DNA of 64,000 nucleotides, from NCBI GenBank assembly GCA_019454045.1, contig SKCR01021425.1, forward strand, positions 1 to 64,000, read 5' to 3'. The stretch is from Zanthoxylum bungeanum (taxonomy: Eukaryota; Streptophyta; Magnoliopsida; Sapindales; Rutaceae). A program made the translations under genes and the position numbers. The notes beneath the pieces are model-generated. The model saw only the letters and a program-made list of their open reading frames with translations. It did not search any database and was not told the DNA's origin. Shown one piece after another: positions 17,879 to 62,962 of the stretch; the stretch's first letter is position 1, and each line of letters starts with the position of its first letter.

Positions 17879-18099
17879 ATCCTGAAAAAGGATGAGTAAT
17901 AATAGCACTAGTACCGGCCAAATGACAATTATTAGGTAAAGAGTAAAATAAATCTTGAAAGTCAAAAAGTCTGGATCTCGTCGGCGAAAATAAAAGAAAA
18001 TAACAAAAAAAAAATCACAATTATTAGTTAAAGACAAATAAATAATAATATGCACAGGAAGTAACGGCTTGAATGACATCTATGTGTCAGGGACAAGCT

Positions 18100-19990: not shown

Positions 19991-20039
19991 GTGTCCATTC
20001 CAGCGGCCATTTCCCCGATACTATGTAGTTTTAATAGTC

Positions 20040-21621: not shown

Positions 21622-21696
21622 GTATGCATACCTGAGATGGTTCGGAAGTGGCTTTAGTTCTAGTTGTAGTGGTTTTTCAATCGAGGGCTTAATTCG

Positions 21697-22280: not shown

Positions 22281-24087
22281 AATGTTCTCCTATGGTGTAG
22301 GAGATGGTGAAACTGCCAGGATCTTTCAACTTTGGGGGAAGCTTCCTCTGAATGATGGCATTATATTCTTCTGTCAATGTTATAGTCTCGTAATCTCCCA
22401 ATTTTCGCTTTCGTGACAGAATATATTTCATGAATTTGACATAGCTGGGCATTTGTTCCAACGCTTATGCAAATGGAATGTTGATATGAAGCTTTTTGAA
22501 GATCTTCAGGAATCTATCAAATTGCTTATCCAGTTTGTGTTTCTGGAGACGCTGTTGAAAATGTGGAGGTGGAGTAAATCTTTCTCAATCATTTTCTTTT
22601 GCATCTTTTTCCTCCATCTGTGGATCTATTTCGCTTCTTTTTTTTGGAAATTCCTCATTAGATTCCTTGATTCCAACATCTTTGTTGATTTCAGTGTCGC
22701 TTTTCAAAGTGATGGCTTGGCATTGCTTCATCCCTCTGTTCCTTGGATTTGGTTCTGTGTTGCTAGGAAGGGTGCTTTGCAGTCTGTAACTCTGAGCATT
22801 GGCCAGTTGTCCCAATTGATTTTCTAGTGCCTTTATAGAAGCTGATTGGTTTTGAAACATAGCATCGTATGATGCTGTTTGTTCTTGAAACATAGCATCA
22901 TATTTGGCTTCTTACTTTTTCATCTGGGCAAGCACTTCTACTATTTCTGGTTCTTTTTCATACTCCTGACCTTTGTTCTACTGTTAGAATCCGGGTGGTG
23001 GATTGTTCATTTTCCCTAAAGTGTTGATCCATGCAAAATTGGGATGATTCCTCTAACCTGGGTTATAGGTATTGGAATATGGATTGTTTCCCTGTCTGTT
23101 GAAATTGCTAACATAGTTCACAGTCTCGTCATATTGGTTGTAAGATTCTGCCTCTGGTGCTCCTCCATATGGTGAACTTGTGGATCCAACATTAACCTGA
23201 ATGCTAAGAGTTTCCAGATATTTGCATATCTGATCCAGCTTGGCACTCATGATTGTATTGGCTCATACTTCGTGGATTCCTGCTATTCGTTGGATCGTGC
23301 TCCTTTCTGTTGGCCATAAGGAATTATTGTTAGCCATTTCTTCAATTAAGTCCCAAGCTTGATCTTCTCATTTTGCCATTAATGCTCTTCCAGTAGCAGC
23401 ATCTATTGTGGTTCTCATTAGTCCAGAAAGTGCATTGTAGAAGGTTTGGACTTGTAGCCACTTTGCAATTTCGTGGTGAAGACATTTTCGGAGAAATTCC
23501 TTGTACCTTTCCCATACTTCGCAGAGGGATTCTGAGTCATGTTGCACAAATGATGTGATGTCATTTCTCAATTTTGCTGTTCTGGCTGGGGGAAAGTATT
23601 TTGCAAGGAATTTGGTGGTAAGAGTGTTCTAAGTTGTGATGGAACCTACTGGTAGTGAATGTAGCCAAGCCTTATCTCTGTCTTTCAAGGAATATGGGAA
23701 CACTCACAGACGCATTGCTTCTTCTACCGCTCGGTTGTAATTGAATATGCCACAAACTTCCAGGAATTTACTGATGTGGGCATTAGGATCTTCAGTTGCA
23801 CTTCCCCTGAACTGAACTGATTATTGTATCATCTGAATGCATGTTTTGATGTCACACGCATTTACAGGACAGAGAGGAAGTACAATACATGATATGAAGC
23901 CGTCAACCACCAGAATTGTTCTCTCTCGAATGGTAATTGGTGGTACAACTTCCAAAGGTTTAGGTTCTTGATTGTTCATATTGATCAGTGCTTCTTGACC
24001 TTCTCGCATTTCCTTTCTCAACCGTCTGATTGTTATTTCAATTTTTGGGTCAAGCGGACGGATTTCAAAGCTTCTGTTTCTTCTCAT
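22261..24087 (-). pseudogene. gypsy-1 gag
   Basis: Starts near MRRNRSFEIRPLDPKIEITI (24087). The capsid-like middle reads SESLCEVWERYKEFLRKCLH and QVQTFYNALSGLMRTTIDA (23368-23571). It is followed by YVSNFNRQGNNPYSNTYNPG (23053-23250), LENQLGQLANAQSYR (about 22800) and the C-terminal MPSYVKFMKYILSRKRK. This is the normal Athila gag layout. It is broken by several in-frame stops. I could not see an intact CCHC knuckle. Confidence 0.82.
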
Positions 24088-24192
24088 GTAGTGTCTGAGA
24101 ACCTAAAACACAAGAAAAAAAAATAATAAGTAAAAATAAATTAGACACAAGTAAAGTATCTAACCCCAAAATTAATAGTAAAAGATAAATAA

Positions 24193-24211
24193 GTCTCTGG
24201 CAACGGCGCTA
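24193..24211 (-). promoter_or_regulatory. gypsy-1 primer-binding site (tRNA-Asp type)
   Basis: On the minus strand, just inside the 5' LTR, TAGCGCCGTTGCCAGAGAC is a lightly mutated complement to the 3' end of plant tRNA-Asp. The intact form is in gypsy-2. Confidence 0.8.
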
Positions 24212-24217
24212 AAAACT

Positions 24218-25927
24218 TGACCGGTGGTAAACACACAAGTAATACAAGCGCACGTATCGTTCAAGTAGTATAAAATGTATCGATCCCACAGTGACTTAAT
24301 ACCTAAGCTATTAATTTATGAAGCTAAATGTCTACGAGTATCTAATTATTTTGATTGTTGGTTGGAATGTGATTTTTATTTAAAACAAGTAAATAAAGCA
24401 GAACAAATGTAGATTTTAATTTTTAAACAATAATATGAAAATATCCAGGGTTGTGAATCTTACCAATATTTTTCTAAAGATGAGTTGATTATCTTATGCT
24501 TGTGAAATATGTCAGTTTATTAACCTGGAACACGAAGTTATGCAAAAGCCTTTTCCGATGGTCAGATGAAAACACCCAAAGTAACCTAATTAACTATACT
24601 CCTATGTTAATTAAGAAACTCCAAAATTCATTAAGTTTAAGTTCCAATTATGGCTATCCACGCCCGATAGGTATATTCCTCTCCCGGAAGGGAATCTCTA
24701 GGTTGAATGTGAGATCTTGAGCTATTGAGTCTACGGCTAAACCTAAAATCTCTTTTCCAAGTTCATTTTAAGTTTACCAAATCAACCTTATTAGTGGCCA
24801 ATTAATAAGAAGCATTAATAACTAGACTCAATAAATAAACCTATACACCACACAAGACATAAGAAAAGTCAACTTATTAAATCATTGATATTAGTTTTCA
24901 TCACAACCCTAGAAAACGTATTTAGTTACGACACATATCTAGGATTACTAAAGACATAAATAAATAAAACATCATGCAACTAATTGAAAATTAAAAAGGT
25001 AAAAATTATAACAATGAAATAAAATATTGGGGTTTGGGGATCCACTTTTATTATTTCAAATATAGAAATCTCCTTTATTATAATATATAAATTTGTGTTA
25101 CGTTACCAAACAACCATATAGGCGGTATCCTGATTAAGTCAGGTTTTTAATTAATTCCAACCGACCATAAAAGCGATATCCAATTAAGTCAGGTTAAAAT
25201 TAATTTAATTAAGTCCAACCGACCAATAAGGCAGTATCCATTTAAGTCAGGTTTTAAGATAATTTATATATTATAACTAAGGGAAATTAATCTAAATTAT
25301 TATAATAAAAGCTTTACCTTTCAACCCAGCAGAAAGAAGTTACATACTCATACTTTTAAGTAAAACAAAGAAAGATTTATTACTTAAAATAAAAATTAAA
25401 TACAAGAAAACTGAAATTAAACAAACAAGATACTCTATTCTTTGTATTCTAAAGAAATTCCCCAGAAGAAAGCATGAAGAATTCAAATGAAATCAGCCTT
25501 TATTTATAGGCTTCAAAATTGGTGCATGTCGCGACGCGTGCTGCAGGAATTGGCGACTGTCGGCAGACTCCATTATTGGCTCGGTGTCGCGACGCGTTGA
25601 GGGTTGGCGTCGAGACGCTGACGTCATGATGACATGTGTTGGCATGCTGAATTATTGGCTGTCATCATGATGACCTGTGTCGGTAGCTGAATAATTGAGG
25701 CGCGTCGCGATGCAAAGAGCTTTCGCATTGTGACGCGTGAATTTCCAATTTTGCCCTTTTTCATTCGTTTTTCGCCGGTTTATCCCCGATTTGATTCCAG
25801 GAAGTCTTGAAATTTTATGTATCTACATAATAACACAAAACACATCAAAATATTCACAAAACTCGAGAAACTATACAAAATATTAAGTAAAATGGGCGGT
25901 AAATATTGATATATTTTATGTTTATCA
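24218..25927 (-). mobile_element. gypsy-1 5' LTR
   Basis: Partner of 14109-15897. The minus-strand U3 starts at 25927 (TGATAAACATAAAATATATC). A GCGTCGCGAC and TCATGATGA block occupies 25525-25740, directly upstream of a TATA box (CCTATAAATA, 25501-25510). The shorter length relative to the other LTR reflects losses in this U3 block. Confidence 0.88.
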
Positions 25928-27053
25928 CCCATAATGTGGCTTTTTTGTTCTTTTGAATTTGCCATTGCACCACTATTATCGCAATAAAGTGTGAGTGGTT
26001 TATACATATCTGGAACAACTTCCAGATCTCCCAATAATTTACGGAGCCAGACTGCTTCCTTAGCTGCTTCACAAGCTGCTACATATTCAACCTTCATGGT
26101 GGAGGCAGAAATGCAAGATTGCTTTATACTCCGCCATATTATAGCCCCACCACATAGGGTAAACACAAATACAGATGTTGATTTCCTAGAATCGACATCT
26201 GTCTGAAAATCAGAGTCCGTATATCCACTAAAGATTATATCCTCACCGGATATACAAGCATATAATCTCTCGTTCTCTTAAGATACTTGAGAATGTGTTT
26301 CACAACCACCCAATGATCCAATTATGGGTTAGAATGAATCCTACTGACTACTCCCACTACAAAACAGATGTCTGGTCTCGTGTATAAAATAGCATACATG
26401 AGACTACCAACTGTTGAGGCATATGGGATATGTCTCATTTCCTCAACATCTTGAGGTGTCTTAGGAGACTGTTCCTTTGACAAGTGAATTTCATGTTGAT
26501 AAGGCAAATTGCCTTTCTTAGAATTCTGCATCCCAAATCGCACAAGAATCTTATCGATATAGGATGTCTGAGACATAGCTAACAGTCATTTCTTGCGATC
26601 TCGAAGTATCTGAATCCCAAGAACATAACTGGTCTATCCCAAATCTTTCATTTGGAATTGGTTAGCTAGCCAGGTTTTTACGTCCGATAATATATTTAAA
26701 TCATTCCCAATGAGTAAAATATCATCGACGTATAAAATAAGAAAAACCATATTCCCATCAATGACGCGTTTATATACACAAGGCTCATCAATATTCTACT
26801 CAAAGTCATAAGATTTGATTGTGGTATCAAATCTTATATTCCAAGATCGAGATGCTTGATTGAGTCCATAAATGGACCTTTGCAGCTTGCAAACCTTTTG
26901 CTCTTGACCTTGGGCTATGAACCCCTCTGGTTGTACCATATAGATACACTCATCAAGATTGTCATTCAAGAATGCAGTCTTGACGTCCATTTTCCAAATC
27001 TCATAGTCATAATATGCAGCAATAGACAGAAGAGTGCGGATGGATTTGAGCAT
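25928..27053 (-). pseudogene. copia-1 reverse transcriptase and RNase H, N-terminal piece
   Basis: RT blocks: YEIWKMDVKTAFLNDNLDEC, MVQPEGF, CKLQRSIYGLNQASRSWN (26796-27053), a YVDDILLIGND box (about 26695-26735), then SKEQSPKTPQDVEEM and SLMYAILYTRPDI. RNase H: ISASTMKVEYVAACEAAKEA, WLRKLL and LYCDNSGAMANSKEQKSH. The frame runs into the gypsy-1 LTR at 25927. Multiple stops and frameshifts are present. Confidence 0.88.
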
Positions 27054-27384
27054 GACTACTGGCGAGAAAGTTTCCTCATAGTCAGCTCCCTATTTCTGGG
27101 TATAATCTTTGGCCACTAGCCGATCTACTCCCCTCTTTCTCTTGTAGATCCACTTGTAACCTATAAGTTTTACCCCATCAGGTTGATCTACAAGTTCCCA
27201 GACTGAGTTAGAGTACATAGACTCCATCTATAAGCTCATGGCCTTGAGTCATTCCTCTTTATCAGAATCATTCATTGCACTACGATAGGTCAAATGATCA
27301 TATATATCATCGCTGGATGCGACAACTTGTTCCTCTCCAACTCCTAGATAGAGATCAGGTTGTCGTACAACCCTTCCACTACGT

Positions 27385-28400
27385 CTAGGTGGTGACGATA
27401 CGAAAACTTGCGCTCGAATATGCTATGTATTTGTCAATTGTCATTGACGATGGTGTGCTGGTCGAACCAGCAAGTAACTCCCCGAGTAACACCTTACTTC
27501 GAGGTTTGAAATCCCTCATATAGTCCTCCTCCAGAAACGTTGCATTTTTCGATACAAATACTTTATTATCTTCATGGAAATATAAGAATCCACCCCTATT
27601 CTCCTTAGGATAGCCCACAAATAGGCACACCTGAGAAAGTGGCTCTAACTTTGTAGTCTTATTCTTCAGCACAAGTGATGGACACCCCATATGCAGAAAT
27701 GTTGTAAACTAGTTTTACAACCACTGTACAACTCTAAGGGAGTCTTGGGAACAGACGTAGATGAAACTAAATTAAGGATATGCATTGCAGTTTGCAATGA
27801 ACGAACTAGGTATTGAGCTATAACTAAACATATATCTCATCATATCTAGTAGGGTCCGATATCTCCTTTCTACAACACCAGTTTGTTGTGGTGTTCCAGG
27901 TGCTGTGAGCTGGGATATTATATCATGCTTAACTAAGAATTCCTAAAAATATATGTCAAGGTATTCTCCTCCATGATCTGATCGTAGAGTTTTGGTTGTT
28001 TTACCTAATTGGTTCTCAACCTCAGCACAATGCTCTTTAAACTTTTCAGAAGTATCTAACTTGTGCTGCATTAGGTAAACATACCCATATCTGGAATAAT
28101 CGTCAATAAATGTGACAAAGTATTCATAACCACCTCGGGCTCTTACATTCATCAGTCCGTAAATATCTGAATGTGTAAGCTCAAGTGGTTGAGTGGCTCT
28201 TATACCTTTTCCAGTAAAAGGTCTCTTGGTCATTTTTTCTTCTAAACAAGATTCACAAATTGGTAAAGTTCCGAGCTTTAACTGGTTTAAGGCTCCGTTC
28301 TTTATCAATCTATCTATCTGGTCAAGGCTGATATGACCAAGTCTAAGATGCTATAGATATGTGTCATCGTGAGAAATCTTTTGTTGTTTAGTTTTAGGTT
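27385..28400 (-). pseudogene. copia-1 integrase
   Basis: A pre-integrase zinc region with CESCLEEKMTKRPF leads into HSDIYGLM, GYEYFVTFIDDYSRYGYVYL and TLRSDHGGEYL, which hold the D and D of the DDE triad. The distal part (27385-27690) reads GCPSLVLKN, CLFVGYPKE and FLYFHEDNKVFVSKNATF. The final catalytic Glu region (about 27840-27900) is interrupted by stops. Confidence 0.85.
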
Positions 28401-35939: not shown

Positions 35940-36360
35940 AAACCTTAACAAGAAAGAAATGGTTAAAACAAGAGTCTTTAAATTTCTTGATTCATTCATC
36001 TCTTATATACCTGGTTTGGAGAAAAACACATATACTATGAAATAAAGAGATAAACAATTAGGTGTTTGTTATAAATATGCACGTTGAACGTGCAACACTT
36101 GTTGTCGTTATTTATGAATAATGTCTAATAATTGCGAAGAAAAATTCAACTCATTAGAGATGGCTTGAGTAGGGAGTCATTAGATAATATATCATTGACT
36201 CTTGAGACGCATCCTAATGGATTTGATAGACTGATTCGCAATTTACATACTTAATTTAAAAAAGAAAGACAACAATACAGTCTTGAGAATCCGACTTTAA
36301 AAGATCATGTTTACCAATTTATAAGAAAATTGGATGGGAAGCATATCTCCGACCCATAAA
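35940..36360 (+). pseudogene. Element B ORF-X copy
   Basis: Conceptual reading gives DSFISYIPGLEKNTYTMK, QLGVCYKYAR, CNTCC, MSNNCEEKFNS and, further on, ESDFKRSCLPIYKKIGWEA, matching the order of ORF-X in gypsy-1 (18100-18480). It is riddled with stops. Retention of peptide similarity while the DNA has diverged points to past coding. Confidence 0.5.
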
Positions 36361-36499
36361 GGGTATTCAAGCCGTTACTGGTCGTAAAACCAGAGGAAGA
36401 TGTGAACCACAATCACAACTATCAGTACATATTGTTTCAATTTATTGTTTTGATTTCATTTACTTTAAATTATTGTTTCAATTTAATTTAATTTACTGC

Positions 36500-36711
36500 T
36501 TTGATTTCTTTTACTTTAATTTTGCTGACAACATCTAATATTTTTTACTTTCACGATCTATTTTACTGTTCATATGACAGTTTTCATTTTGCAAATAATA
36601 GTGTCTTTATTACTCACCATTTTTCAGGATCTATTAATACAGCTCATCATTTCTCTATTCGACACATCCAAATAAGAGAGTGTGTAAAAAATGGAGAAAA
36701 CTTCAAGACGA
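36500..36711 (+). pseudogene. Element B LOG upstream region and first codons
   Basis: Contains TTTCACGATCTATTTTACT, ATTACTCACCATTTTTCAGG and CTATTAATACAGC, matching the LOG upstream region in gypsy-1 and gypsy-2 with a decayed TATA box (about 36632). An ATG at 36691 then reads MEKTSRR before a TGA, equal to the MEATSRR start of the other copies. The rest of LOG is deleted. Confidence 0.65.
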
Positions 36712-42497: not shown

Positions 42498-43397
42498 TCA
42501 CGTACATATCATGGCATACATGATCGATCCAAATGCCGAAGCGAACGAGATCTGACTCATGTTGTCTCTCTCATCTTGGGTTTTAGGATACATGTCCTTA
42601 GATAGAGTGACATCATGTGACACTGGCAACAGTCCCCTCTTAGACTGTTCCATGTTGAATCTCTTCAACACTTTGTCAATATACATGCTCTGGGAGAGTC
42701 CAAACAGCTTTCTAGATCTATCCCGGTAGATCTTTATTCCTAGAATAAAGACTGCTTCTCCCAGATCCTTCATGGAGAATTTTAATGAAAGCCAAGCTTT
42801 CACCGATTGTAGCATGGGAATGTCATTGCCAATAAGCAATACATCATCAATGTAAAAGACAATGAATGTCAGTGCGCTCTCACTAACTTTCTTATATACA
42901 CAAGGATCATCCTCGTTTTGAATGAAATCATATTCTTTTATGATCTCATCAAAACGTTGGTTCCAAGAACGCGATGCTTGCTTCAATCCATAAATGGATC
43001 GATTTAACTTGCAAACCTTGTCTGCATGTTTTGGTACGACAAAACCGTCAGGCTGTTGCATATAAATATCCTCCAAAAGGCTTCTGTTAAGGAAATAGGT
43101 TTTGACGTCCATCTGCCATATCTCATAATCGAAATATGCAGTAATAGCAAGCATTATCCAAATGGATTTAATCATGGCAACAGGTGAAAAAATTTCATCG
43201 TAATCGACACCATGTCGTTGAGGATACCCTTTCGCTACAAGCCTAGCTTTATACGTTTGTATGTTGCCATCCATGTCGGTCTTCTTCTTGAAGACCCATT
43301 TGCTACCAATAGGCTTTACGCCTTCTGGTGCATCAACCAGTGTCCAAACTTGGTTGGTGTACATGGAATCCATTTTAGATTCATGGCATCTTGCCAT
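42498..43397 (-). CDS. copia-2 reverse transcriptase (open frame)
   Basis: An uninterrupted 299-residue frame. It copies element RNA into DNA within the virus-like particle. Blocks: WTLVDAPEGVKPIGSKWVFK, YKARLVAKGYPQRHGVDYDE, FSPVAMIKSIWIM, EIWQMDVKTYFLN, CKLNRSIYGLKQASRSWNQR, the catalytic FIVFYIDDVLLIGND, and SLKFSMKDLGEAVFILGIKI. The catalytic box is YIDD where copia elements usually have YVDD. The frame stops in the connection at SIMYAMICT, just before a stop, and is shifted relative to the upstream integrase frame (43316-43816). It is part of a broken polyprotein. Confidence 0.9.
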   Translation of the reverse strand: MARCHESKMDSMYTNQVWTLVDAPEGVKPIGSKWVFKKKTDMDGNIQTYKARLVAKGYPQRHGVDYDEIFSPVAMIKSIWIMLAITAYFDYEIWQMDVKTYFLNRSLLEDIYMQQPDGFVVPKHADKVCKLNRSIYGLKQASRSWNQRFDEIIKEYDFIQNEDDPCVYKKVSESALTFIVFYIDDVLLIGNDIPMLQSVKAWLSLKFSMKDLGEAVFILGIKIYRDRSRKLFGLSQSMYIDKVLKRFNMEQSKRGLLPVSHDVTLSKDMYPKTQDERDNMSQISFASAFGSIMYAMICT

Positions 43398-44455
43398 AAA
43401 CCGGAGTCGATACCTTGTATCGCTTCCTCATACGTAGCCGGTTCATCTTCCTTAATAAGATTAATATCCACATGAGGTGAGATCAGAAACCCATACCTCT
43501 CAGGTTGTTTTCTGACTCTCTCCGACCTACGTGGTTCTTGTGTATTCGAAGATTGTGGTACAGTCTCATCCCTGATGAACTGTTCATGTTCCGTTAAGGA
43601 ATCAGTGCCAGGAACAGTATCACTCTGATTTTCAAAGAGTTCTACTTTCCTCCCACTAACCACTACATTTAGGAATTCCCTTTCAAGGAAAACCGCATGT
43701 AGAGTAACAAATATTTTGTTCTCTTGTAGGTTGTAAAAGTAATATCTTTTGGTTTCCCTATGATAACCTACAAATAAACAATTATCCGATTTGGGTTCAA
43801 GTTTGGTTCCATCCAAACGTTTAAGGTATGCCCAGCAACCCCAAATCTTCAGGAATGAGAAACCCGGTTTCTTTCATGTCCATATTTCATACGGAGTATG
43901 TTGAACAGACTTTGACGGAACCTTATTCAAAATAAGTATTGCACTGTTCAATACATATCCCCAGAAGGAAATAGATAGCTCTGTGCGACTCATCATCGAC
44001 CTTACCATGTCTACCAAAGTTTGGTTTCTCCGTTCGAACACACCGTTTAATTGCGGTGTTCCGGGAGGAGTCCACTGTGGAAGAATACCATACTCTTTCA
44101 AGTAATCAAGAAACTCATTACTTAAGTATTCTCCACCACGGTCCGACAGTAATGTTTTAATACTTTTGCCGGTCTGTTTTTCTACTTCGTGTCGAAACTC
44201 TTTGAATTTCTCAAAGGTTTCCGACTTGTGTCTCATAAGATACACATAACCATAACGCGATACATCATCTGTAAAGGTTACAAAGTATTCATATCCACCT
44301 CTAGCCTGGCTAGACATGGGCCTACATACGTCACTATGAACGAGGGCTAACAGTTCTGTGGCACGTGCACCTTTACCGCTAAAAGGTGTTTTGGGCATTT
44401 TGCCTAATAAATAAGATTCGCAGACGTCATATGAATTTGGATCAAATCCGTCCAA
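43316..44455 (-). pseudogene. copia-2 integrase
   Basis: Core frame 43874-44455: CESYLLGKMPKTPFSGKGA, HSDVCRPMS, GYEYFVTFTDDVSRYGYVYL, LLSDRGGEYLSNEF and the WTPPGTPQLNGVFERRN segment holding the third acidic residue; D, D and E are all present. The distal frame 43316-43816 reads NCLFVGYHRETKRYYFYN, KIFVTLHAVFLEREF and an acidic linker to RT. One stop or frameshift separates the two. Close to intact. Confidence 0.9.
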
Positions 44456-44931: not shown

Positions 44932-45026
44932 TTTTAAAACTAGAAGTAGACATGTTTATTTCTATAACAAACATACCTGAAGTCGGTGCCTTGTCCGCTT
45001 TGATTTCCTTTATGAGTGCCTTGTAC

Positions 45027-47186
45027 TGACCGGCGTAAACACACACGTATAACGCAAGCGCACGTATCGTTCAAGTAGTATAAAAATATCGATCCCACGA
45101 GGACTTAATTCCTACTGTTGTTATTAATTATTGATTCTATTTATTTAGAAATATCTAATTGAGGGAGAAGAGAATGATTGCTTGATTGATTGGTTGATTG
45201 TAGTTTTGCAAAAATAAAAATAAATAAAAAGACAAAAGAAAATATTAAGGAGAATAACAAAAGACACAAAGATCTAGGGTGTGAATCCTTCTAATATCTT
45301 TTAAAAGATGAAGTGATTATTTTATGTTTGTGTAATAAATCAGTTTACTAACCTGGAACACTAAATTATGCAAAAGCCTCTGTCGATGGTCAGACGCAAA
45401 TACCCAGTTTAACCCAATTGAATCATATGTCTATGTCAACCCAATTATCTGGATTTATTAAGTTTAAGTTCCAATTATGGCTACCCCCGCCGACAGGTAT
45501 ATGTATATCCTGTAAGGAAATCTATTAAAGGGTTATCTATCCTCAAGGAAGATCGTGGGCTATTAAGTCTAAGGTTGAAACCTAAAATCCCTATGTCTAG
45601 TTCATTTTAGATTTACCACATCAATCTATTGGTAATCAGACAACAAGAAGCATTAAGCTTAAGACTTAATAAGTAAACCTTTAAATTACCCAAACTATAA
45701 AATAACCCCTTATAAACCGGTGATATTAGAATTCATCACAACCCCAGATAACTAACACATAACTAAGGCTAGTAAGAACTTAAAAGTAAAAGACATAAAG
45801 TAAAAATACTGAAAAGTAAAAGACATAAAGAAAAAGCTGAAAAGTAAAATAAAATACTAAGGTAAAAGGAATTACTTTAATATTTACTATTTTAGATATC
45901 TCCCATAAAGTAATATATAAACTTGTGATTCTTTTTCCAACCAGCCATATAAGCGGTAATCTGATTAAGTCAAATAAGTCCAACCAGCCATAATGGCAGA
46001 ACCAAAATTAAATTACCAACCGACCAATCTGGCGGTATCCTTGTTTAGTCAGGTTTAAACCAGATTAAATGAATTACCAACCGAATCTGGCGGTATCCTT
46101 TTTAAGTCATATTTTAAATAGTGAATATATTATTTTTAAGGGAGATTAATCTAAATAGTAACAGTAAAAGAATTACCTTTCACCCTAGCTGGAGAAGTTT
46201 TTACTCCTCATGGTAAATAGTAAAAATGTAAAAGTAAAAAAGTAAATTACTATATTAACAAAACGTAATTAAAATTATTTACAAAAAAAACTAAAAAAAA
46301 CTAAAAACTAAAAGAAACTAGAGAGAGAAACTCTCTCTTACAGAGAATAGAAGAGATAGAATGGTACAACAAAATCTGAAATCTCGAGCTCAATTTATAG
46401 CGCGGATAAGCTTCCAGCGTCGCGACGCCAAGGCCTCTGGCGTCGTCGCCTACGCCAGATTCTGTCGACGTGGCACGCTCTCTGTTTACAGATTCTGGAT
46501 AAGCTGATAAGGTGACACGTGGCGAGGTAGTTGGGCTTCAATTATTGTGACACGTGGCGGCTTCTGATGGTCGAGGAGATTCTTATCCGCCACGTGTCAA
46601 ATAAGGATTAGATACTCAATTATTAACGCTGATGTGGCGGTGACGTGGGAAAGAGAGTGTCGGCACCGTAGAATGCTGACACGTGGCGCTTCCTGATTGG
46701 CTGATGATGATGTGGCAATGACGTGGCAATTTGACTTGGTCACCTGGTTGTGGCTGATGACGTGGTAATGACGTGGAGTGACACGTGGCACGTGGCGATG
46801 ATGACTGTCGGCACCGTAGGATGCTGACACGTGTCACGGCGCATGTTAGAAGATCGGCTGTGATGGTGACACGTGGCACGGCACACGTTAGCAAAGTCAA
46901 ACTTTTCTCAGATTCTGATTTTGGGACCCGACGCATGTTAGCACTGTTCGGCGCACGTTAGGCGTCGCGACACTGAATGTCTTGGCGTCGCGACGCGGGA
47001 AATTACCAAAATGCCATTTTCGTCCAATTTTCACTGTTTTGGCCCAAATCACCTCCACAATGTCCTGAAACTTATTTATCTACAAAATAACACAAAACAC
47101 ATCAAAACGTTCACAAAACTCAAGAAAAACTATACAAAATATTAGGTTAAATGAGTGGAAAATAGTGATAGATTTACCACTCATCA
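45027..47186 (-). mobile_element. gypsy-2 3' LTR
   Basis: Partner of 51042-53218. It contains CCAACCGACCAATCTGGCGG-type repeats (about 45905-46120), a TATA box on the minus strand (CTATAAAT, 46393-46400), GCGTCGCGACGC motifs (46418, 46966-46999) and a dense G-box cluster upstream of the TATA box (46516-46875). Confidence 0.9.
46516..46875. promoter_or_regulatory. Cluster of eight CACGTG G-boxes in U3
   Basis: Exact CACGTG at 46516, 46551, 46591, 46680, 46782, 46789, 46828 and 46870, mostly as GACACGTGGC, plus further ACGTGG half-matches. In plants these are binding cores for bZIP (ABRE/G-box) and bHLH factors. The block lies 110 to 480 bases upstream of the LTR TATA box. The partner LTR has seven exact copies (52543, 52619, 52708, 52813, 52822, 52861, 52903), with one changed to CATGTG. 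Response to ABA or light is inferred from the motif only. Confidence 0.8.
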
Positions 47187-48489
47187 CACCCTCAAACCTA
47201 ACATTTTGCTAGTCCTCGAGCAAAACATAAAATAACATAAATAAATTAACTAAGCCATTTTCGTAGGGATCACGGTTGCATTTAGCATATGCAACAAGCC
47301 TTTAAACCCCTAGGTGTCCCTAGTGGACGAGTTGTAGTCTCGTGAGGGTTTACAGCAATGATACCCACAAACATTTTACAAAAGTAAAAAGTTAGTTAAA
47401 ACTAATGCACACAAAAGCAAAAAGACAAGTGAAAAGAGAATAAAGAAGTTAGTGACTAATCAGGTGAAACTTATACTCCAAGTTACTAGTTGTTTTGTTT
47501 TATTCTAAATTACTGAATAAGTAAATTCTCCGATTATTTTACCATTCTTCATATACATAGCCAACAAAATATTAAATAACTTATTTTTGCCCACAACAGT
47601 CATAAGTGCAGTTGATAAGAGAGTAATATTTTTGTCCTAAAGTTCTATCAGATTTCACACCTTTTTGTAGCAATGGAATAATTTTTCTGATTTTTTCTTT
47701 GGTTTTTTTTTTATTATATACAATATCTTCCATCTATGTAACGAGTGTTGGGTCAGTGGCTCCCAAACCAGTTGGTTTAGGGCACCAGGTGTTAAGACAC
47801 CCCTACGGACTTAATTACTCAGACTTCAGATATCTATATTTTTGCAGCATCTTCGATCCATGTAACGAGCTTTGGGCCAGTGACTCCCAAACCAGTTGGC
47901 TTTAGGGCACTAGGTGTTAAAACACCCTTACAGACTTAATAACTCGGATCTCAGACGTTTTTTTTTTTTTTTTTTACTCCATTGCTTTTTGAGATGTTTC
48001 CTCCAATTAAACTAGAGCACTGACTATTACAAACTTTTCAATTTTAGCTCATGTCCGTATTTACTATATATGTTGATAATATCTATCAACTGAGCATATG
48101 AAGATTCATTTTAGTCCGTTTTAAGAAGAATTTACAAATTAAATAATTCAAAATGAAATAAACAAAAATTAACTTGTTTCGAAATAGGTTTGAGATACGT
48201 CTCAGGAGTAGAAACTCCTTACTCAGCTATCTCTTACCAATTTCACCTTTTTAGTCAAAATAAAAACACAAAAACACAAAATATTTTAGTAATTTTTGAA
48301 AAATTTTCAATTTTTTTGTATTTTTCGAAAAATTTTGAACTAAAAATAAAAATAACACACAAACTAAAAACAAGGTACTGATCAACTAATTCCCTCCCCC
48401 AAACCTAAATGAGACATTGTCCCCAATGTCTTAAACAGTAAAAGGAGAGTTAAGAAGGTCGTACATGGTTAGCTGAAATCTACAGGAAA
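47187..48489 (-). other. gypsy-2 conserved 3' module
   Basis: Collinear with the gypsy-1 module. It has a perfect GACATTG/CAATGTC hairpin (48413-48430), GGAGTTTCTACTCCTGAGACG (about 48195-48215), two copies of CCAAACCAGTTGG with flanking GGGCAC(C/T)AGGTGTTAA (about 47764 and 47889), the LGQKYYSLI segment (about 47600-47640) and CTCGAGGACTAGCAAAATG (47203-47222). Next to the LTR is the polypurine-like GGTTTGAGGGTG. It lacks the paired GTGATTGTTCGC motifs. Confidence 0.65.
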
Positions 48490-49143
48490 TTAAAGGTTAA
48501 GATCCAGATTAATTCGACGCCTCTTACCATGATCGTCCTCGGACCAATTTATCTTTGAAAGGATAGGGTCAACTTGTGGTTCATAGGCTATGAGTTGGTC
48601 TATTAGATCCGGAGCAGTTCTGGCAGTGAAGATGAGTTCTTTCATAGGTTTTGACACGAACCCATTTCTCCGGGTATCATCAAGAAACACACAAAGAAGA
48701 AATCATAAAATCCATCAATGTTAAGCAGTCCAAGCGGTTTCTGGTGTATGTTCAGGTTCGCCCAAAATAGAACTATAAAAATTTCCTCCAATGTACCCAA
48801 GCCACCTGGCAAAGCGATAAAAGCATCAGCACAGTTAATCATTTCTACCAGTCGTTCAGACATACCTGGCACGATCAGTTCCTCTCCGTTTGATGATCCA
48901 ATAAGATTTGCCTCTGCCAAGGGTTTTGGGATGATTACCAAAACATGACTGCCTCCTTCCTGTACAGACTTTGAAACGATCCCATAAGTCGAGATTGCCT
49001 CCGCCATATATTAAGTGCATATTTCTTGCTCAGCTAAGACTCGACCCAATTCCTGTGCCGCTTCTACGTATTGTGGTTTAGTACCAACACTACTACCGCA
49101 AAACACGCAGATGTTTTCAACTTCTTCTTGAAGTGGCTTCCAT
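48490..49143 (-). pseudogene. LOG: LOG-like cytokinin riboside 5'-monophosphate phosphoribohydrolase, nearly complete
   Basis: 654 bp, close to the length of plant LOG genes' coding sequence, with an ATG at 49143 and TAA at 48490. LOG enzymes cut cytokinin nucleotides to the active free base in the cytosol. In conceptual frames: MEATSRR, ENICVFCGSSVGTKPQYVEA, AAQELGRVLA, LIYGGGNL, then GIVSKSVQEGG, IIPKPLAEANLIGSS, MSERLVEMINCADAFIALPG, the catalytic PGGLGTLEE intact, [46 protein letters not shown] and the tail KRRRINLDLNL. The family's RK pair is RL here (MSERLVEM). About three or four small indels break the frame (near 49117, 49000-49050 and 48690), so it is probably not translated whole. 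Intron-less. Family call is sure; activity is doubtful. Confidence 0.9.
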
Positions 49144-49662: not shown

Positions 49663-50703
49663 TTAAGGAGGTTTCAATGTCGTTTTGGATGTCCGATTAA
49701 AGACAATCCCGTGAGCGTTGCTTTTGAAGGGTCTCTTCCAACGGTAAAGTGGCAAAAAGAGTTTTGTCTCATTCAGTGCTCGTGCTACCTTTTTACTCCT
49801 TGTTGTTCCAGTGGTTCCTGCAAAGAAAGAAAGAAAATCAGGAGGTCTCGTATGATGCTTGACTTGGAATGGGAGTTCCATTATGTCAAGCTTTTGGGCG
49901 ATATCTTTGATTTGTACTCCCCAAAACAGCGATGTTTCTCCTGAATGCTCTGGATCTTTATTAAGGTCAGACATTTTCTCCTCCATTTGCTTTGTTTCTT
50001 GCTCCACCTTTTCTTCACAGATGAATTTTAAAATTTTTGTATTCAGCTCTTCATCTGTCATTTGTGAAATACATGCTTCAAAATTGTCAACCTGAGGATG
50101 AAAAGATGTGTCAGATTTTAGGTCTTCATCCTCTGATTTGGGTGAAATGATTGGTTCATGTAGATCTTCTTCAAACATCAAGGTAAAACATGCTCTAAGA
50201 TTTTCATTTTTAGGATTGAAAGTTTGATCCTTCGTTGTTGGTGCAGTTGGTACAAATAGATCAGCTTCATCCTCGTCAGAATCTGAATAATAAAAGTCAA
50301 ATTGAGACTTTACCGGTTCGGGCTCCTGAACTGATACATCTGGTTGTTGATACTGCTCAGCCTCATCCTCTGTTGAAGTGTCATTGTGAAATGATTGGTA
50401 TTCCAAGGCTTCATCAGTGTCATCTGAAAATGGTTCTTGAGGTATGTAGTTCTGGTTTTCTGTGAATGTCTCATTTGATCTGTCATCCTTCTGAATGAAT
50501 TCTGATGTCTCTGAATTTGTGTATCTAATTGAGCTTCCCGTTCTTCGAGCCAATGTATGAGGGTGTGAATCAACTGATCTTCCTTCGATGGTTTTGTTTG
50601 TTGATGAAGATCGTAGATGGATGGTGGATAAGATGGATAATATGATGGTTCTTCGTACCTTGAATGATTCAAATAATTCTGCCACTCTGAAAGGTATATA
50701 CAT
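49663..50703 (-). CDS. 346-residue fused frame replacing gag-pol
   Basis: The longest open frame in the window. The middle is strongly acidic and S/E/D-rich (FDFYYSDSDEDEADLF). It has two related linker-like segments, LRACFTLMFEEDL and FEACISQMTDEELNTKILKF, resembling the post-protease linker of gypsy-1 (LEACITNMIDREVDDDILEC). The C-terminal part (ALNETKLFLPLYRWKRPFKS) leads to the GCGCTAGCAGGGAGGCAACC motif that follows integrase in gypsy-1. It thus seems to join linker sequence to post-integrase sequence across a deletion of RT to integrase. No known catalytic domain. It could be an evolved protein or simply a chance open frame; the start codon is uncertain because homologous frames overlap upstream. 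Confidence 0.5.
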   Translation of the reverse strand: MYIPFRVAELFESFKVRRTIILSILSTIHLRSSSTNKTIEGRSVDSHPHTLARRTGSSIRYTNSETSEFIQKDDRSNETFTENQNYIPQEPFSDDTDEALEYQSFHNDTSTEDEAEQYQQPDVSVQEPEPVKSQFDFYYSDSDEDEADLFVPTAPTTKDQTFNPKNENLRACFTLMFEEDLHEPIISPKSEDEDLKSDTSFHPQVDNFEACISQMTDEELNTKILKFICEEKVEQETKQMEEKMSDLNKDPEHSGETSLFWGVQIKDIAQKLDIMELPFQVKHHTRPPDFLSFFAGTTGTTRSKKVARALNETKLFLPLYRWKRPFKSNAHGIVFNRTSKTTLKPP

Positions 50704-51016: not shown

Positions 51017-51035
51017 GTCCCCGGCAACGGCGCCA
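51017..51035 (-). promoter_or_regulatory. gypsy-2 primer-binding site (tRNA-Asp)
   Basis: Minus-strand TGGCGCCGTTGCCGGGGAC, just inside the 5' LTR, fully complementary to the 3' end of plant tRNA-Asp as I know it. It is the typical primer site of Athila-lineage elements and is intact. Confidence 0.9.
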
Positions 51036-51041: not shown

Positions 51042-53218
51042 TGACCGGCGTAAACACACACGTATAACGCAAGCGCACGTATCGTTCAAGTAGTATAAAA
51101 ATATCGATCCCACGAGGACTTAATTCCTACTGTTGTTATTAATTATTGATTCTATTTATTTACAAATATCTAATTGAGGGAGAAGAGAATGATTGCTTGA
51201 TTGATTTGGTTGATTGTAGTTTTGAAAAATAAATAAATAAATAAAAAGACAAAAGAAAATATTAAGGAGAATAACAAAAGACACAAAGATCTAGGGTTGT
51301 GAATCCTTCTAATATCTTTTAAAAGATGAAGTGATTATTTTATGTTTGTGTAATAAATCAGTTTACTAACCTGGAACACTAAATTATGCAAAAGCCTCTG
51401 TCGATGGTCAGACGCAAATACCCAGTTTAACCCAATTGAATCATATGTCTATGTCAACCAAATATCTGGATTCATTAAGTTTAAGTTCCAATTATGGCTA
51501 CCCCTGCCCGACAGGTATATGTTTATCCTGTAAGGAAATCTATTAAAGGGTTATCTATCCTCAAAGAAGATCGTGGGCTATTAAGTCTAAGGCTGAAACC
51601 TAAAATCCCTATGTCTAGTTCATTTTAGATTTACCACATCAATCTTATTGGTAATCAGACAACAAGAAGCATTAAGCTTAAGACTTAATAAGTAAACCTT
51701 TAAATTACCCAAACTATAAAATAACCCCTTATAAACCGGTGATATTAGAATTCATCACAACCCCAGATAACTAACATATAACTAAGGCTAGTAAGAACTT
51801 AAAAGTAAAAGACATAAAGTAAAAATACTGAAAATTAAAAGACATAAAGAAAAAGCTGAAAAGTAAAATAAAATGCTAAGGTAAAATGAATTACTTTTAC
51901 TATTTACTATTTTAGATATCTCCCATAAAGTAATATATAAACTTGTGATTCTTTTTCCAACCAGCCATATAGGCGGTAATCTGATTAAGTCAAATTAAGT
52001 CCAACCAGCCATAAAGGTGGAACCAAAATTAAATTACCAACCGACCAATCTGGCGGTATCCTTGTTTAGTCAGGTTTAAACCAGATTAAATTGAATTACC
52101 AACCGACCAATCTGGCGGTATCCTTTTTAAGTCAATATTTTAAATAGTGAATATATTATTTTTAAGGGAGATTAATCTAAATAGTAACAGTAAAAGAATT
52201 ACCTTTCACCCTAACTGGAGAAGTTACCTCCTCATGGTAAATAGTAAAAACTGTAAAAAGTAAAAAAGTAAATTACTATATTAACAAAATGTAATTAAAA
52301 TTATTTACAAAACTAAAAACTAAAAAAAACTAAAAACTAAAAGAAACTAGAGAGAAAAACTTTCTCTTTACAGAGAATAGAAGAGAGAGAGTGGTACAAC
52401 AAAATCTGAAATCTCGAGCTCAATTTATAGGCGCGGATAAGCTTCCAGCTTCGCGACGCAAAGGCCTCTGGCGTCGCTACGCCAGATTCTATCGACGTGG
52501 CACGCTCTCTGTTTGCAGATTCTGGATAAGCTGATAAGGTGACACGTGGCGAGGTAGTTGGGCTTCAATTATTGTGACATGTGGCGGCTTCTGATTGGTC
52601 GAGGAGATTCTTATCCGCCACGTGTCAAATAAGGATTAGATACTCAATTATTAACGCTGATGTGGCGGTGACGTGGGAAAGAGAGTGTCGGCACCGTAGA
52701 ATGCTGACACGTGGCGCTTCCTGATTGGTTGATGATGATGTGGCAATGACGTGGCAATTTGACTTGGTCAACCTGGTAATGTGGCTGATGATGTGGTAAT
52801 GACGTGGAGTGACACGTGGCACACGTGGCGATGATGACTGTCGGCACCGTAGGATGCTGACACGTGTCACGGCGCATGTTAGCAGATCGGCTGTGATGGT
52901 GACACGTGGCACGGCACACGTTAGCAAAGTCAAACTTTTCTCAGATTCTGATTTTGGGACCCGGCGCATGTTAGCACTGTTCAGCGCACGTTAGGCGTCG
53001 CGACGCTGAATGTCTTAGCGTCGCAACGCGGGAAATTACCAAAATGCCCTTTTCGTCAAATTTTCACTGTTTTGGCCCAAATCACCTCCAGAATGTCTTG
53101 AAACTTTATTTATCTACAAAATAACACAAAACACATCAAAACGTTCACAAAACTCAAGAAACTATACAAAATATTAGGTTAAATGAGTGGGAAATAGTGA
53201 TAGATTTACCACTCATCA
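51042..53218 (-). mobile_element. gypsy-2 5' LTR
   Basis: Partner of 45027-47186; differences are scattered point changes and small indels. It has the TATA box CTATAAAT at 52433-52440 and seven exact G-boxes upstream (52543-52908). It would drive the gypsy-2 transcript leftward. The exact TGTAC duplication follows at 53219. Confidence 0.9.
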
Positions 53219-53995
53219 TGTACTCACGACAGTCACGTTTCCAGTGACCCCATTTGCCACACTGCAGGCATACATCTTGGAATTTTTCCTTTGCCTTCCC
53301 ATAAGACTTTGACGATTTGGCCTTGCCCTTCTTCTTCTTCTTCTTCTTCTTCTTTACACCTCCAGTAGCCTTCGGCAAGCCTTGGGAGACTGAGATGTTG
53401 AAGCGAAGTGCGCCTCGCACTTTTTGCCCTTCATTAGCTTTTTTCTGCTTCACGCAGCATTGCCATCAGCTCTCCAAGAGTATGGTCTTGGTTCATCACA
53501 CTATAGTTCCTGATGAACCCGCTCCAACTGTTAGGAAGAGACTGCAAGATCAAATCTATAGAAGTCTCAGCCTCAAAGGTTATACCTAGCTGACCCAGCT
53601 GTTCAATGTCCGCAATCATCTGCGACACATGGTGCTCGACAGATGTACCCTCTGACATTCGAGAGCGAAAGAGCTTTTCTGTAATTCATACATTTGCGAT
53701 CTAAGGTTAGATCGATGAAGGTCCTTCAATTTTGGCATCATTGTATAGGGGTCATCGCAGTGAGCATGACGGATTGAGCAGTTGAGTTGTCATTGCTATG
53801 AGTCTTCCAAATCTCAAGCTCAAACGGCTTCTAATTTCCGGGCTTAAGCCCGAGAGGTCTCTCTATCGTATAGAGCATCCTCTCAGCCCCCAGGACAATC
53901 CTGAGGTTCATATCTCAATCAGGAAAGTTCGCGCCATTAAAGACATTTTCGCCCATGATAATGTCTCTAACCCCGATCTTTCCAGTCATCTTAAT
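53219..53995 (-). pseudogene. copia-2 gag
   Basis: On the minus strand: FNGANFPD, NLRIVLGAERMLYTIERPLG, then EGTSVEHHVSQMIADIEQLG and LPNSWSGFIRNYSVMNQDHT (53434-53658), typical of copia gag (UBN2-like). Next come a poly-lysine tract from a (CTT)n run (about 53329-53353), KSYGKAKEKFQDVC and the knuckle CLQCGKWGHWKRDC. The element is split by gypsy-2 directly after the knuckle. One frameshift (near 53450) and several stops upstream. Confidence 0.85.
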
Positions 53996-58902: not shown

Positions 58903-61900
58903 TATTGGGTTTCTACTATAGTCCCAAGTGTTGGACAAAATGACCCATAGCGTCACTATTTGCACAGATCATTGTGTTGTTGTAGCAAATTAACTATGTG
59001 ACAAGGAAATTGCACTCTCATCATTTGTGATTAGATCACCATAGATATATAAATGAAGAGAGGTCCCTATGATTAGTTCCTGGACTGAGAATGATATGAG
59101 ACAGTATCAGTCCCCGAAGGATTAATCATTAAATATCCCTAGCCGGAGTATTATCGAGACTGGACATCGATAATGCGGAATAGGCTAGTATTGCACTTGT
59201 GTGCGTTGTGAGGGCACAACGGCATAGTTCTCATATATATAAGTATTGGATACTTATGCAAGTGCGATAGGAGGTCGTGTTTCACCGATGGTACGGGAAA
59301 CAGCTTCGCTCTGGATAGACCCCTCGGAATCCCATTGGTATTATGACTATGTGTCTATGGGAGGCTGAAATCAGGGTAGGTGTGTATGGTCTTAACCTGA
59401 GACTTACATCGCTAATACTTACGATAATCGATAGACTTTGGTCTTGGTGGTACAAGGCTTTAACCGGTTCTGCGTACACCACTTCTGGGTTTATCAGAGA
59501 GTCGTAGTGTATTGGGTGTGATGTCAAGACGGAAGTATCACTTCAGTCATAGTGGAGATGATGTCACGCAGGATACGGTACTAGTGCTCTTGAGTGTTGC
59601 GCAACCAATCGGGATATTGTGACCAGGTCATGAATATCCGATTATAGAGACTATGTTACCAGACATCCGACATGTGCTTCGGACGGGGCATACACTTATC
59701 CAGCCCCAGCCCTAGCATGTGACTATCCGATACTGGGCCGATATACACAATACTACGGTATACTACGCTTGATACAGATCTATATATTCCTGTAAGAATA
59801 TTTCTGGAGAATTGGGTAGGCATGGCGCTTTGCTAGAAGCCAACCTTGTCTTGTAAATCGGTATAAACGTAGTACGAGGTACTTACGTGTTCGGATAGTC
59901 CGACGACCGTATTTACTGCCAACATATCCGGAGATCTCATGAGTCGGTTCCTGAAGATTCACCGATGACGTATGACTCGCACTTTAATTAATCTGGGATT
60001 AATTCGATGAGAGAGAAAATTAATCTGGGATTAATTACGGAGATATTTTATCTCGAATAAAATATCGTTAAAGAGAGAGAACGATTAATTTGGAATTAAT
60101 CGATAAATTAATATATTCGATATATTATAACGAAATTAGATTTCGACGAGGAATTGAAATTAGATTTTAATTCGGGCGAACGAATCAATTTAGAATTAAT
60201 TCGTTAGCGACGTGAATAGTGATTTCGCTAGGCGTAATCATTTAATTACGACGCAACGGAAAATTCATTAATTTGGAATTAGCGAACCCGAGCCCGAGAT
60301 TGTTTGCGAGCGCATTCGCATTTTGAATTCGAGTGCGGAACGCAAGTCAAATCAAGCGTCAAATCATTAGTCACATCAAGCGTCAAATCAATTATCACTT
60401 TGAGTGATGTGACAAGTTGTCACTTGATTGAGTGATGTGACTTGATGGAGTTTGGTGAAAAGTGAAAAAGGCTTGTACCTTTGACTTTTACAAAATTAAA
60501 AATGGTATATGTTTATTAATTTTGGAAATTAACACATACATTTACGCATTTTATTTTTTCCCTCCTCTCTCTCTTGCAACCTTCACGTTTTGGAGCCCAA
60601 AACCCTTTCTCTCTCTCACGATTTTTCCTCTGCTCACTGCCTCAAAACCGTGAGTTCAAGGAGAAGATAGAGAAATTTGTGGCAAATTTCTTGGGTGCTA
60701 GCACACATAGGAGCCATCCTAAGGTGATAGGGAAGTGTCTTCATGAGCTTGGAATCACCTTGATAAGCTTGGAGCTTGGAGCATCAATGGAGGACCACCC
60801 AAAGCCGAAAATGGAGCTGCAGTTCACTGCCATTGCCGAGCTTGGAGGGAGGCAGCAACTTGAAGGCAGTTCGGTTTTGTCTTTGTTGCATCTCTACCGA
60901 TCAATGTGAGTTATTCCGCACCTCCTTTGATATGTATTCAACTCGTTTATGCATGATTTATGATCCTTGGGACTTGATTGAAACTTAACACCAAGATCAT
61001 TCAAGCAATGAAAATAATGTGAATACAATAAAGAAGTATGGCGGGATCATACTTACAATGAACAGATTTGTGATGCGAATAACACAAAAAATTTCTTTAA
61101 GCTTTTCCTCCTAAGTTCGGCCATGCCCTTTCTTTGTGCTTCTTGTTTGATCTCCAAGCTCCAAGCTTTGTGTGTGGATTCCATGATCAAGAGTTGGTTT
61201 CCCTATCACCTTTGTGTGACCCCTTGGATGTGCTAGCATCATTGAAAAATTTGCCATAAATCTTTCTTATGATGCTTCTTGTAGTTCTCGGCCGAGCCAA
61301 GAACTTGAGAGGAAAAATGGCACCTTGGCCGAATGAGGGAGATAGAGAGAGAAGAAGATGAGTTGTGTATTGAGTATTTTGGATTTCAAAAATCTAATAC
61401 CAATTACCACATTCCAAAAAGGTACAAGATATTTAAGCCTTCCAACAACTCACATCAATCAAAAATTGACAAGTTGTCAATCACCAAAAAGGTGACAAGA
61501 CTCCCATCACAAGAATGACTAATGATGTGATGCGTGATGTGACTTGTGGGCCCCACTTGATTCGAAATGCGAGTGGGCCCGCAAACACTCTCGGGCTCGG
61601 GTTCGCTAATTCCAAATTAACGAATTTTTCATTGCGACGTAATTAAATCAAATTTTAATTAAATAATTATGCCTAGCAAAATTATTATTCACGTCGCTAG
61701 CGAATTAATTCTAAATTAACTTGTTCGCCCGAATTAAAATCTAATTTTAATTCCGCGTCGAAATCTAATTTCGTTTAATATATCGAATATATTATTTTAT
61801 CGATTAATTCCAAATTAATCGTTCTCTCTTTAAATAGTATTTTATCCCAGATAAAATATCTCCGTAATTAATCTCAGATTAATTTTCTCTCTCATATAAT

Positions 61901-62957
61901 TAATCACAGATTAATAATGTGCGAGTCATACGTCATCGGTGAATCTTCGGGAAGCGACCCATGAGATCACCGGATATGTTGGCAGTAAATCCGGTCGTCG
62001 GACTATCCGAATACGTACTTACCTAGTACTACGTTTTTACCGATTTACAAGACATGATTGGCTTCTAGCAAAGCACCATGCCTACCCAATTCTCCAGAAA
62101 TATTCTTAAAGGAATATGTAATCTATATCAGGCGTAGTATACGTAGTATAGCGTATTGCGATCCAATATCGGATGTCACATGCTAGGCATGGGGCTGGAA
62201 TTGTGTGCCCCGTACGAAGCACATATCGGATCTCTGGTAACTAGTTTCTATAATCGGATAACTATGACCTTGTCATATTATCCCGATAGCTGCAGCATAT
62301 AAGAGCACCAGTTCTGTATCCTACGTGATCATCATCTCCACTATGACTGGAGTGATACTTCCATCTTGACATCACACCCAATACACTACGATTCTCAATA
62401 TACCCAGAAGAGGCGTACACAGAACCTGTTAAAGCCCTGGACGACCAAAACCAAAGTATATTGATTGTCGCAAGTATTAGTGGTGCAAGTCTCAGGTTAA
62501 GACCAAATACACCTACCTTGATTCGGACTCCCATAGACACACAGTCATACTACCAATGGGATTCCGAGGGTCTATCCAGAGCGAAGCTGTTTCCGTACCA
62601 TCGGTAAACACAACCTCCTATTATACTTGCATGAGTATCCAATACCCAAATATATGAGAACTATGCCGTTATGCTCCCATAACACGCACAAGTACAATAC
62701 TAGTCTATTCCGCATTATCGATATCCAATCTCAATAATACTACAATTATGGATGTTTTAATGATTAAATCTTAGTGGATTAATACTGTCTCATATCTTAT
62801 TAATCCGTTACTAATCATATGGACTTTTATCATTTATATATCCCGGTAATCCAATTACAAATGATAAAAGAGCAATTTCTTTTGTCACATAGTTAATTTG
62901 TACAACAATACCATGTTCTGTATAAATAGTTATGCTATGGGTCATAATTGTCCAACA
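58903..62957 (-). mobile_element. Older solo LTR, leftward, split by a second solo LTR
   Basis: The left end TATTGGGTTTCTACTATAG (58903-58928) and the right part 60996-62957 (ending GTCCAACA) together form one LTR of the copia-2-related family, in the same orientation as the copia-2 LTRs. Flanks are CCAAG (58898-58902) and CCGAG (62958-62962), an aged 5-bp duplication. The start has decayed from TG to TA. No internal region. Confidence 0.8.
58929..60990 (+). mobile_element. Younger solo LTR, rightward, nested in the older one
   Basis: Starts TGTTGGACAAAATGACCC and ends GAAACTTAACA, with the exact duplication CCAAG (58924-58928, 60991-60995). It belongs to the same family as its host LTR but in the opposite orientation, so the two form a large inverted repeat. 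A TTTCTCTCTCTC tract and short frames near 60574-60909 are non-coding LTR sequence. Confidence 0.85.
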
Positions 62958-62962
62958 CCGAG

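Follow-up and report, generated by a model that had tools for sequence, protein, structure and literature searches.

Retrotransposons of an Athila-type Ty3/gypsy lineage in Zanthoxylum bungeanum carry a gene of the LOG family. On the evidence of its sequences, LOG here is a real, old and selected cargo gene of that lineage. The window, by which we mean the whole stretch of 64,000 nucleotides analyzed (contig SKCR01021425.1, positions 1 to 64,000; GC content 34.7%), comes from a genome assembly of 3.956 Gb in 51,709 contigs. It holds four elements with LOG sequence, called gypsy-1, gypsy-2, A and B. We consider it probable that the capture of LOG by this lineage was a single, old event and that LOG has been retained as an accessory gene ever since.

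LOG-carrying elements in the window and in the genome

The extents of LOG were mapped against L026, one open copy from the same genome. Relative to L026, the gypsy-2 LOG has five frameshifts and zero stops within the mapped columns, that of gypsy-1 has six stops and two frameshifts, and the element A remnant has one frameshift and one stop. Thus, all of the window copies are broken. An open piece of the gypsy-2 copy (48642–49007, minus strand) matches PF03641 (E = 1e-26) and AtLOG3 (2a33, E = 2e-28), and an open reading frame (ORF) of element A (6867–7253, plus strand) matches PF03641 at 1.8e-14. These E-values exclude a chance similarity, and the LOG homology of the window sequences is certain. 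The initial annotation had located LOG-family sequence in the same four elements, and the profile and AtLOG3 matches, together with the mapping onto L026, agree with those locations. It had given no strand, which is now set as minus for gypsy-1 and gypsy-2. In both of these elements, LOG lacks introns and is followed directly by a non-coding stretch and then the 3' LTR.

The gypsy-2 element has TG...CA ends, a perfect 5-bp target-site duplication (TSD), GTACA, and a primer-binding site (PBS) behind the 5' long terminal repeat (LTR). Because the TSD is perfect and the PBS is present, the LOG of gypsy-2 lies within a single inserted unit. The PBS, TGGCGCCGTTGCCGGGGA, is one that we take to be of the tRNA-Asp type, and a tRNA-Asp-type PBS is typical for Athila. 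No pol match was found in gypsy-2; a gag-C-type ORF of 346 aa, related via L011 to the C-terminal part of gag in L020, and LOG remain. The layout of gypsy-1 is 5' LTR, gag/pol, a second cargo ORF, LOG, about 1.3 kb of further sequence, and the 3' LTR. Its PBS is degraded but of the same kind as that of gypsy-2, and its TSD is imperfect, with the flanks agreeing at 4 of 5 bases. The second cargo ORF, of 182 aa, is situated between pol and LOG and resembles the nucleic-acid-binding protein (NABP) of carlaviruses. The initial annotation makes no mention of it. Element B consists of gag/pol bits, a remnant of this NABP-like ORF, the NABP–LOG spacer and seven LOG codons.

A PF03641 profile search of the genome gave 47,331 first-look candidates, a loose and unverified count. 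The best 150 were scored, and all of these are above the curated cut-off, 147 of them without a stop in the domain. This search excludes a LOG confined to this window, and the many, largely open, matches extend the occurrence beyond the window copies, as the initial annotation had supposed. Twenty of the best 150 matches were fetched as stretches of about 10 kb each (L009–L028). LOG is fully open in 13 of them, and in most it has a MEATSRR-like N-terminus and an INLDLNL-like C-terminus. The flanks of LOG are common to all 20 stretches, which excludes a later, separate insertion of LOG beside the elements. In 18 of the 20, the similarity stops 3.4–4.2 kb past the LOG ATG, where the 3' LTR should end, and the two exceptions (L015 and L018) are both rearranged.

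Upstream of LOG in L026 is an ORF of 909 aa with RVT_1 at 210–366, RT_RNaseH at 454–557, H2C2 at 661–718 and rve at 739–832, which is the gypsy order of reverse transcriptase, RNase H and integrase. An additional RNase H is described as a mark of Tat (PMC6317226), and no second, separate RNase H domain was found at E ≤ 0.001 in this ORF, the one copy searched. A looser PBS pattern occurs 5' of LOG in 11 of the 20 stretches; the other nine are without that end or do not match. By their pol domains, PBS and LTRs, the LOG carriers are assigned to an Athila-type Ty3/gypsy lineage.

The stretches were classed from the position of the 5' LTR and from their ORFs, with L016, L018 and L027 outside the classes. 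Those bearing pol are L019, L023, L025 and L026. Most of pol is gone from a class with 3.7 kb before LOG (L012, L013, L015, L017, L020 and L024), and another has only 1.9 kb before LOG (L009, L010, L011, L021, L022 and L028); gypsy-2 is of this latter kind. In L014, the 5' LTR is 4.4 kb upstream. A gag-C-related acidic ORF was found in L010, L011 and L028 of the 1.9-kb class and in L014. Derivatives without most of pol, of the gypsy-2 type, have kept LOG. The LTR pieces are 95.1–98.5% identical in 12 of the 13 non-tandem stretches that have two pieces (L009 gives 88.6% and 78%), and most of the sampled insertions are therefore fairly recent.

In L018, LTR–LOG units repeat in tandem at intervals of about 3.49 kb, and two of the LOG copies are identical in protein sequence. 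LOG may be amplified in satellite-like arrays as well. Acceptor-like motifs (CCCTTTTCAG type) and TATAAAT-like motifs are seen about 45–85 bases 5' of the LOG ATG in most of the 20 copies.

Table 1. Coordinates of LOG, its neighbors and the LTR elements (window positions, except for L013)
Feature	Position	Strand	Remark
LOG-family sequence, gypsy-2	48490–49143	−	92–93% vs L026
LOG-family sequence, gypsy-1	17164–17815	−	78–80% vs L026
LOG remnant, element A	6883–7233	+	codons 76–193 only; 68% vs L026
LOG, element B	36691–36711	+	initial seven codons only
NABP–LOG spacer, element B	36497–36670		upstream of the LOG codons, as precedes LOG elsewhere
NABP-like ORF, gypsy-1	18070–18629	−	decayed; pol–LOG interval
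NABP-like remnant, element B	35988–36369	+	
NABP-like ORF in L013	4039–4599		
3' LTR, gypsy-2	45027–47186	−	window self-comparison
Conserved stretch, LOG to 3' LTR, gypsy-2	47187–48489	−	89.8% vs L026 over 47134–48489
ORF of 346 aa, gypsy-2	49663–50703	−	common to pol-less LOG elements
PBS, gypsy-2	51018–51035	−	behind the 5' LTR
5' LTR, gypsy-2	51042–53218	−	96.4% identity with own 3' LTR
TSD, left copy, gypsy-2	45022–45026		GTACA (element strand)
TSD, right copy, gypsy-2	53219–53223		
3' LTR, gypsy-1	14108–15906	−	window self-comparison
gag–pol region, gypsy-1	19202–24215	−	about 80% vs L026 and L024
5' LTR, gypsy-1	24217–25934	−	87.0% identity with own 3' LTR
Pieces of post-LOG stretch, element A	7304–8586	+	

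The window also contains a Ty1/copia remnant with RVT_2, rve and SH3 domains (42498–44455, minus strand), about 0.6 kb from gypsy-2; just 13 bases past gypsy-1 begins a diverged relative (59%) at 25947–28257. A large inverted repeat at 58928–62958 has about 77% identity with its own reverse complement and is related to repeats at 39.9–41.9 kb and 56.1–58.0 kb.

Selection on LOG and its origin

For a sample blind to LOG, the genome was searched for NABP, giving 46,083 first-look candidates, and 1 kb downstream was fetched for 20 of the 150 matches that were scored. LOG sequence is found in all 20 NABP-anchored copies, with at least 213 mapped reference positions in each. Among 40 LOG-chosen copies, 23 have a LOG free of lesions, 11 of these being readable from codon 8 on. 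The selection test used 58 unique copies, after duplicates L032 and L055 had been dropped, with the window copies excluded. Variants present in a single copy comprise 67 synonymous, 165 nonsynonymous and 9 stop changes (omega-like 0.91). Variants in at least three copies comprise 82, 55 and 1 (0.24), and those in at least five comprise 60, 27 and 0 (0.16). The difference between singletons and variants in at least three copies has a Fisher probability of 2e-9, and of 1e-4 for the 19 NABP-chosen copies alone. Furthermore, variants in at least three of the 20 LOG-centered stretches fall on codon positions 1/2/3 as 15/6/39 in LOG, while the same count in three neighboring stretches gives 21/18/18, 26/11/17 and 39/36/45, with no excess at position 3. 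Since the shared variants are mostly synonymous and the singletons are nearly neutral, LOG is under purifying selection during element replication. The pattern fits an element gene that is under purifying selection and decays almost freely once inserted. That LOG has been retained as cargo, as first proposed from the window, thus agrees with the purifying selection on shared variation and with the open copies elsewhere in the genome.

What is the origin of the captured gene? The LOG tree contains 83 sequences, with 16 host LOG-type proteins, AtLOG3 and AtLOG8, and with no host LOG from this genome. The transposable element (TE)-type LOGs of this genome, Xanthoceras, Acer, Populus and Reevesia fall together in a single clade (ultrafast bootstrap, UFBoot, 97), separate from the sampled host LOGs; these genera span several rosid orders. 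The single clade supports one old capture, the history that the initial annotation had preferred, rather than the LOG of each element grouping with a different host gene. Several named neighbors of P0023 are LOG7 genes, which hints at a LOG7-type gene as the parent. The TE-type LOGs of Xanthoceras and Acer would be borne by transposable elements, judging from copy number and the NABP neighbor. The Populus proteins P0031, P0036 and P0061, annotated as LOGL10, also fall in the TE-type clade.

Active site, tail and the NABP-like neighbor

The open TE-type LOGs of this genome keep the LOG fold and the PGGxGTxxE motif. The catalytic residues are retained at every readable codon in the 62 mapped copies (Arg99 in 60/60, Glu122 in 61/61). 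In the proposed prenyl pocket, M96 and W129 are kept, and H97 is replaced by S, K100 by L and E125 by I in nearly all mapped copies. The pocket residues are nearly invariant among these copies. For CgLOG, the proposed prenyl site is reported to include H97, K100 and E125, with K100 contributing to the adenine site as well; replacing residues that bind adenosine monophosphate (AMP) by alanine nearly abolished activity, except for S19A (PMC4979012). The MHRKEEEW pocket is complete in P0038 and, one Acer protein aside, in the Sapindaceae-type TE-LOGs, and the Sapindaceae-type proteins differ from the copies of this genome in both pocket and tail. The C-terminal tail of TE-LOG is basic with an LxLxL (EAR-like) motif, and is absent from the sampled host LOGs. 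With its pocket changed, the TE-LOG of this lineage may have lost the ability to make hormone. The initial annotation had called the gene cytokinin-activating. With the window copies broken and three of the five proposed prenyl-pocket residues replaced in their open relatives, that label appears doubtful and should for now be dropped for these LOGs.

The NABP-like copy in L013 scores 26.8 bits with Viral_NABP (gathering score 23, E = 6e-6) and 22.9 bits with Carla_C4 (gathering score 20.9, E = 8e-5), and that in L024 scores 26.7 and 25.3 bits, respectively. In the protein, a KKRRAK-like basic run precedes a Cys cluster, and its structure model (pLDDT 58.7) is too poor for a fold search. Few of the 20 LOG-chosen stretches have the NABP-like frame intact. 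Homologues at E ≤ 1e-3 number 391, and among the 120 of them listed are proteins of Xanthoceras, Populus, Acer, Rhamnella and Orobanche. In Xanthoceras, a LOG (ACOSQ2_032186) and an NABP-like gene (ACOSQ2_032187) have consecutive locus tags and contigs of one size, and the LOG/NABP-like pairs P0117/P0144 and P0045/P0143 are on contigs equal in size (8723 and 4511). The locus tags and equal contig sizes suggest linkage of LOG and NABP outside this genome. A scan found no relatives of P0001 or of the NABP alignment among viral contigs. The LOG alignment matched only distant LOGs there, on 25 IMG/VR contigs (L069–L093) with 26–55% identity in the best segment.

Proposed explanation and comparison with known systems

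We suggest that a LOG messenger entered an Athila-type lineage through a single, ancient capture and has since stayed in the env position, after pol, in sense orientation and before the 3' LTR. The LOG protein would then act in trans in the cell expressing the element. That LOG is a selected accessory gene of the element seems very likely; the specific action proposed for its protein is tentative. TE-LOG retains the LOG fold and both catalytic residues, but has a remodeled N6 (prenyl) pocket and a basic, EAR-like tail. From the pocket and tail, a nuclear modulator of host state that binds or hydrolyzes a nucleotide appears likelier than a plain cytokinin-activating enzyme. TE-LOG and the adjacent NABP-like ORF would form a host-manipulation module. 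The fullest version of this is a two-gene module in the env position, selected across several rosid orders in perhaps tens of thousands of copies, in which the LOG pocket has been rebuilt for another small nucleotide, a nuclear, co-repressor-binding EAR-like tail has been gained, and the partner gene resembles the NABP of plant RNA viruses. We regard this version as possible but less likely than not.

Several observations weigh against a selected accessory gene or against its proposed action. LOG is free of lesions in just 3 of the 20 NABP-anchored copies. Variants in exactly two copies (29 synonymous, 61 nonsynonymous, 2 stop; omega-like 0.76) are still near neutral. The same stop, at codon 190, is shared by L016, L030, L050 and gypsy-1, so either broken LOGs have also been propagated or the site mutates often. 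Shared variants in the 1.9-kb pol-less class plus L014 are only mildly skewed (29:18, n = 7), which together with the codon-190 stop indicates that broken LOGs spread too, presumably with help in trans. Searching the element leader gave no splice donor to go with the acceptor-like motifs upstream of LOG. The LxLxL of the tail is a short motif with putative binding only. Finally, the host side of the LOG tree is weakly supported (18), and because of this, the parent gene is not fixed.

If TE-LOG were still a normal cytokinin-activating enzyme, more active cytokinin could promote cell division or passage into the germ line. The retained fold, PGGxGTxxE, Arg99 and Glu122, and the full pocket of most Sapindaceae-type TE-LOGs and P0038, would fit such an enzyme. 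However, in this genome nearly all mapped copies have lost the three residues placed in the prenyl site of CgLOG, where alanine at AMP-binding residues was mostly so damaging (PMC4979012), and we regard normal activity as unlikely. LOG as a passive passenger, spread by hitch-hiking after a single capture and with no function for the element, would account for the broken window copies, the recurrence of broken LOGs with the same stop, and the near neutrality of singleton and two-copy variants. It does not account for the low omega-like values of widely shared variants, a codon-3 excess that is absent in adjacent stretches, nearly invariant pocket residues, or the open TE-type LOGs annotated in Xanthoceras, Acer, Populus and Reevesia, and is very improbable. 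Alternatively, different Athila families could each have captured host LOG genes in repeated, independent events, which might explain why the window copies differ strongly (61–72% identity over LOG plus flanks) and why the Sapindaceae-type proteins diverge in pocket and tail. The single clade, the similar length, and the signs of the same NABP-like neighbor in Xanthoceras and in both protein pairs speak for one capture instead, and make the repeated one most improbable.

The origin and function of accessory genes in plant LTR retrotransposons are mostly unknown. For TE-LOG, the ancestor family and the active site are known, host paralogues can be compared, and element-level selection is seen along with a stepwise change of the substrate pocket. 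This makes the role of such a gene for its element directly testable in vitro. In addition, where an annotated plant genome shows an expanded LOG family, the extra genes can be retrotransposon cargo, as may be the case for the Populus LOGL10 proteins.

The abstract of Steinbauerova 2011 is said to name two Athila-like elements similar to LOGL4; a literature search for LOGL4 with retrotransposons was without result. We also found no account of the amplification, selection, pocket change or tail of TE-LOG in a search mostly without subscription papers, nor of NABP-like retrotransposon cargo, judging by titles and the openings of abstracts.

The basic fact of a LOG domain in plant Gypsy elements is already known, so the initial annotation's remark that it knew of no described case is corrected. 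A YgdH (LOG) domain is reported in Gypsy consensuses of Citrus sinensis and C. clementina and, unfiltered, also of Populus trichocarpa, and is linked to LONELY GUY, the occurrence being covered in two sentences that cite Steinbauerova 2011 (PMC9289625). Like those consensuses, the present elements carry a LOG-family domain as extra cargo; relative to that account, what is added here is the many open copies, the selection test, the tree, the pocket change, the tail, the NABP-like neighbor and the pol-less derivatives. In orchids, Gypsy elements carry an AlkB-type N6-methyladenosine (m6A) demethylase (PMC9289625), a similar case in that a host-like enzyme domain has been fixed in an LTR retrotransposon lineage. 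However, the enzyme and lineage are different, and the biochemistry was tested there, whereas the case made here is one of sequence. The 3' additional ORF of sunflower Athila, with a predicted nuclear localization signal (PMC11728184), is comparable in its 3' position and predicted nuclear signal, but resembles Transposase_32/Athila ORF-1, not LOG. Like the carlavirus NABP (Viral_NABP, Carla_C4), the NABP-like ORF combines a basic stretch with a Cys cluster; it scores above both Pfam gathering thresholds. Unlike the viral protein, this ORF is encoded by a retrotransposon, its E-values are weak and its structure model is of low confidence. Plant LOG enzymes (AtLOG3, AtLOG8, LOG7) have in common with TE-LOG the fold, PGGxGTxxE and the catalytic Arg and Glu, whereas TE-LOG is intronless cargo with H97, K100 and E125 replaced and a basic tail containing LxLxL.
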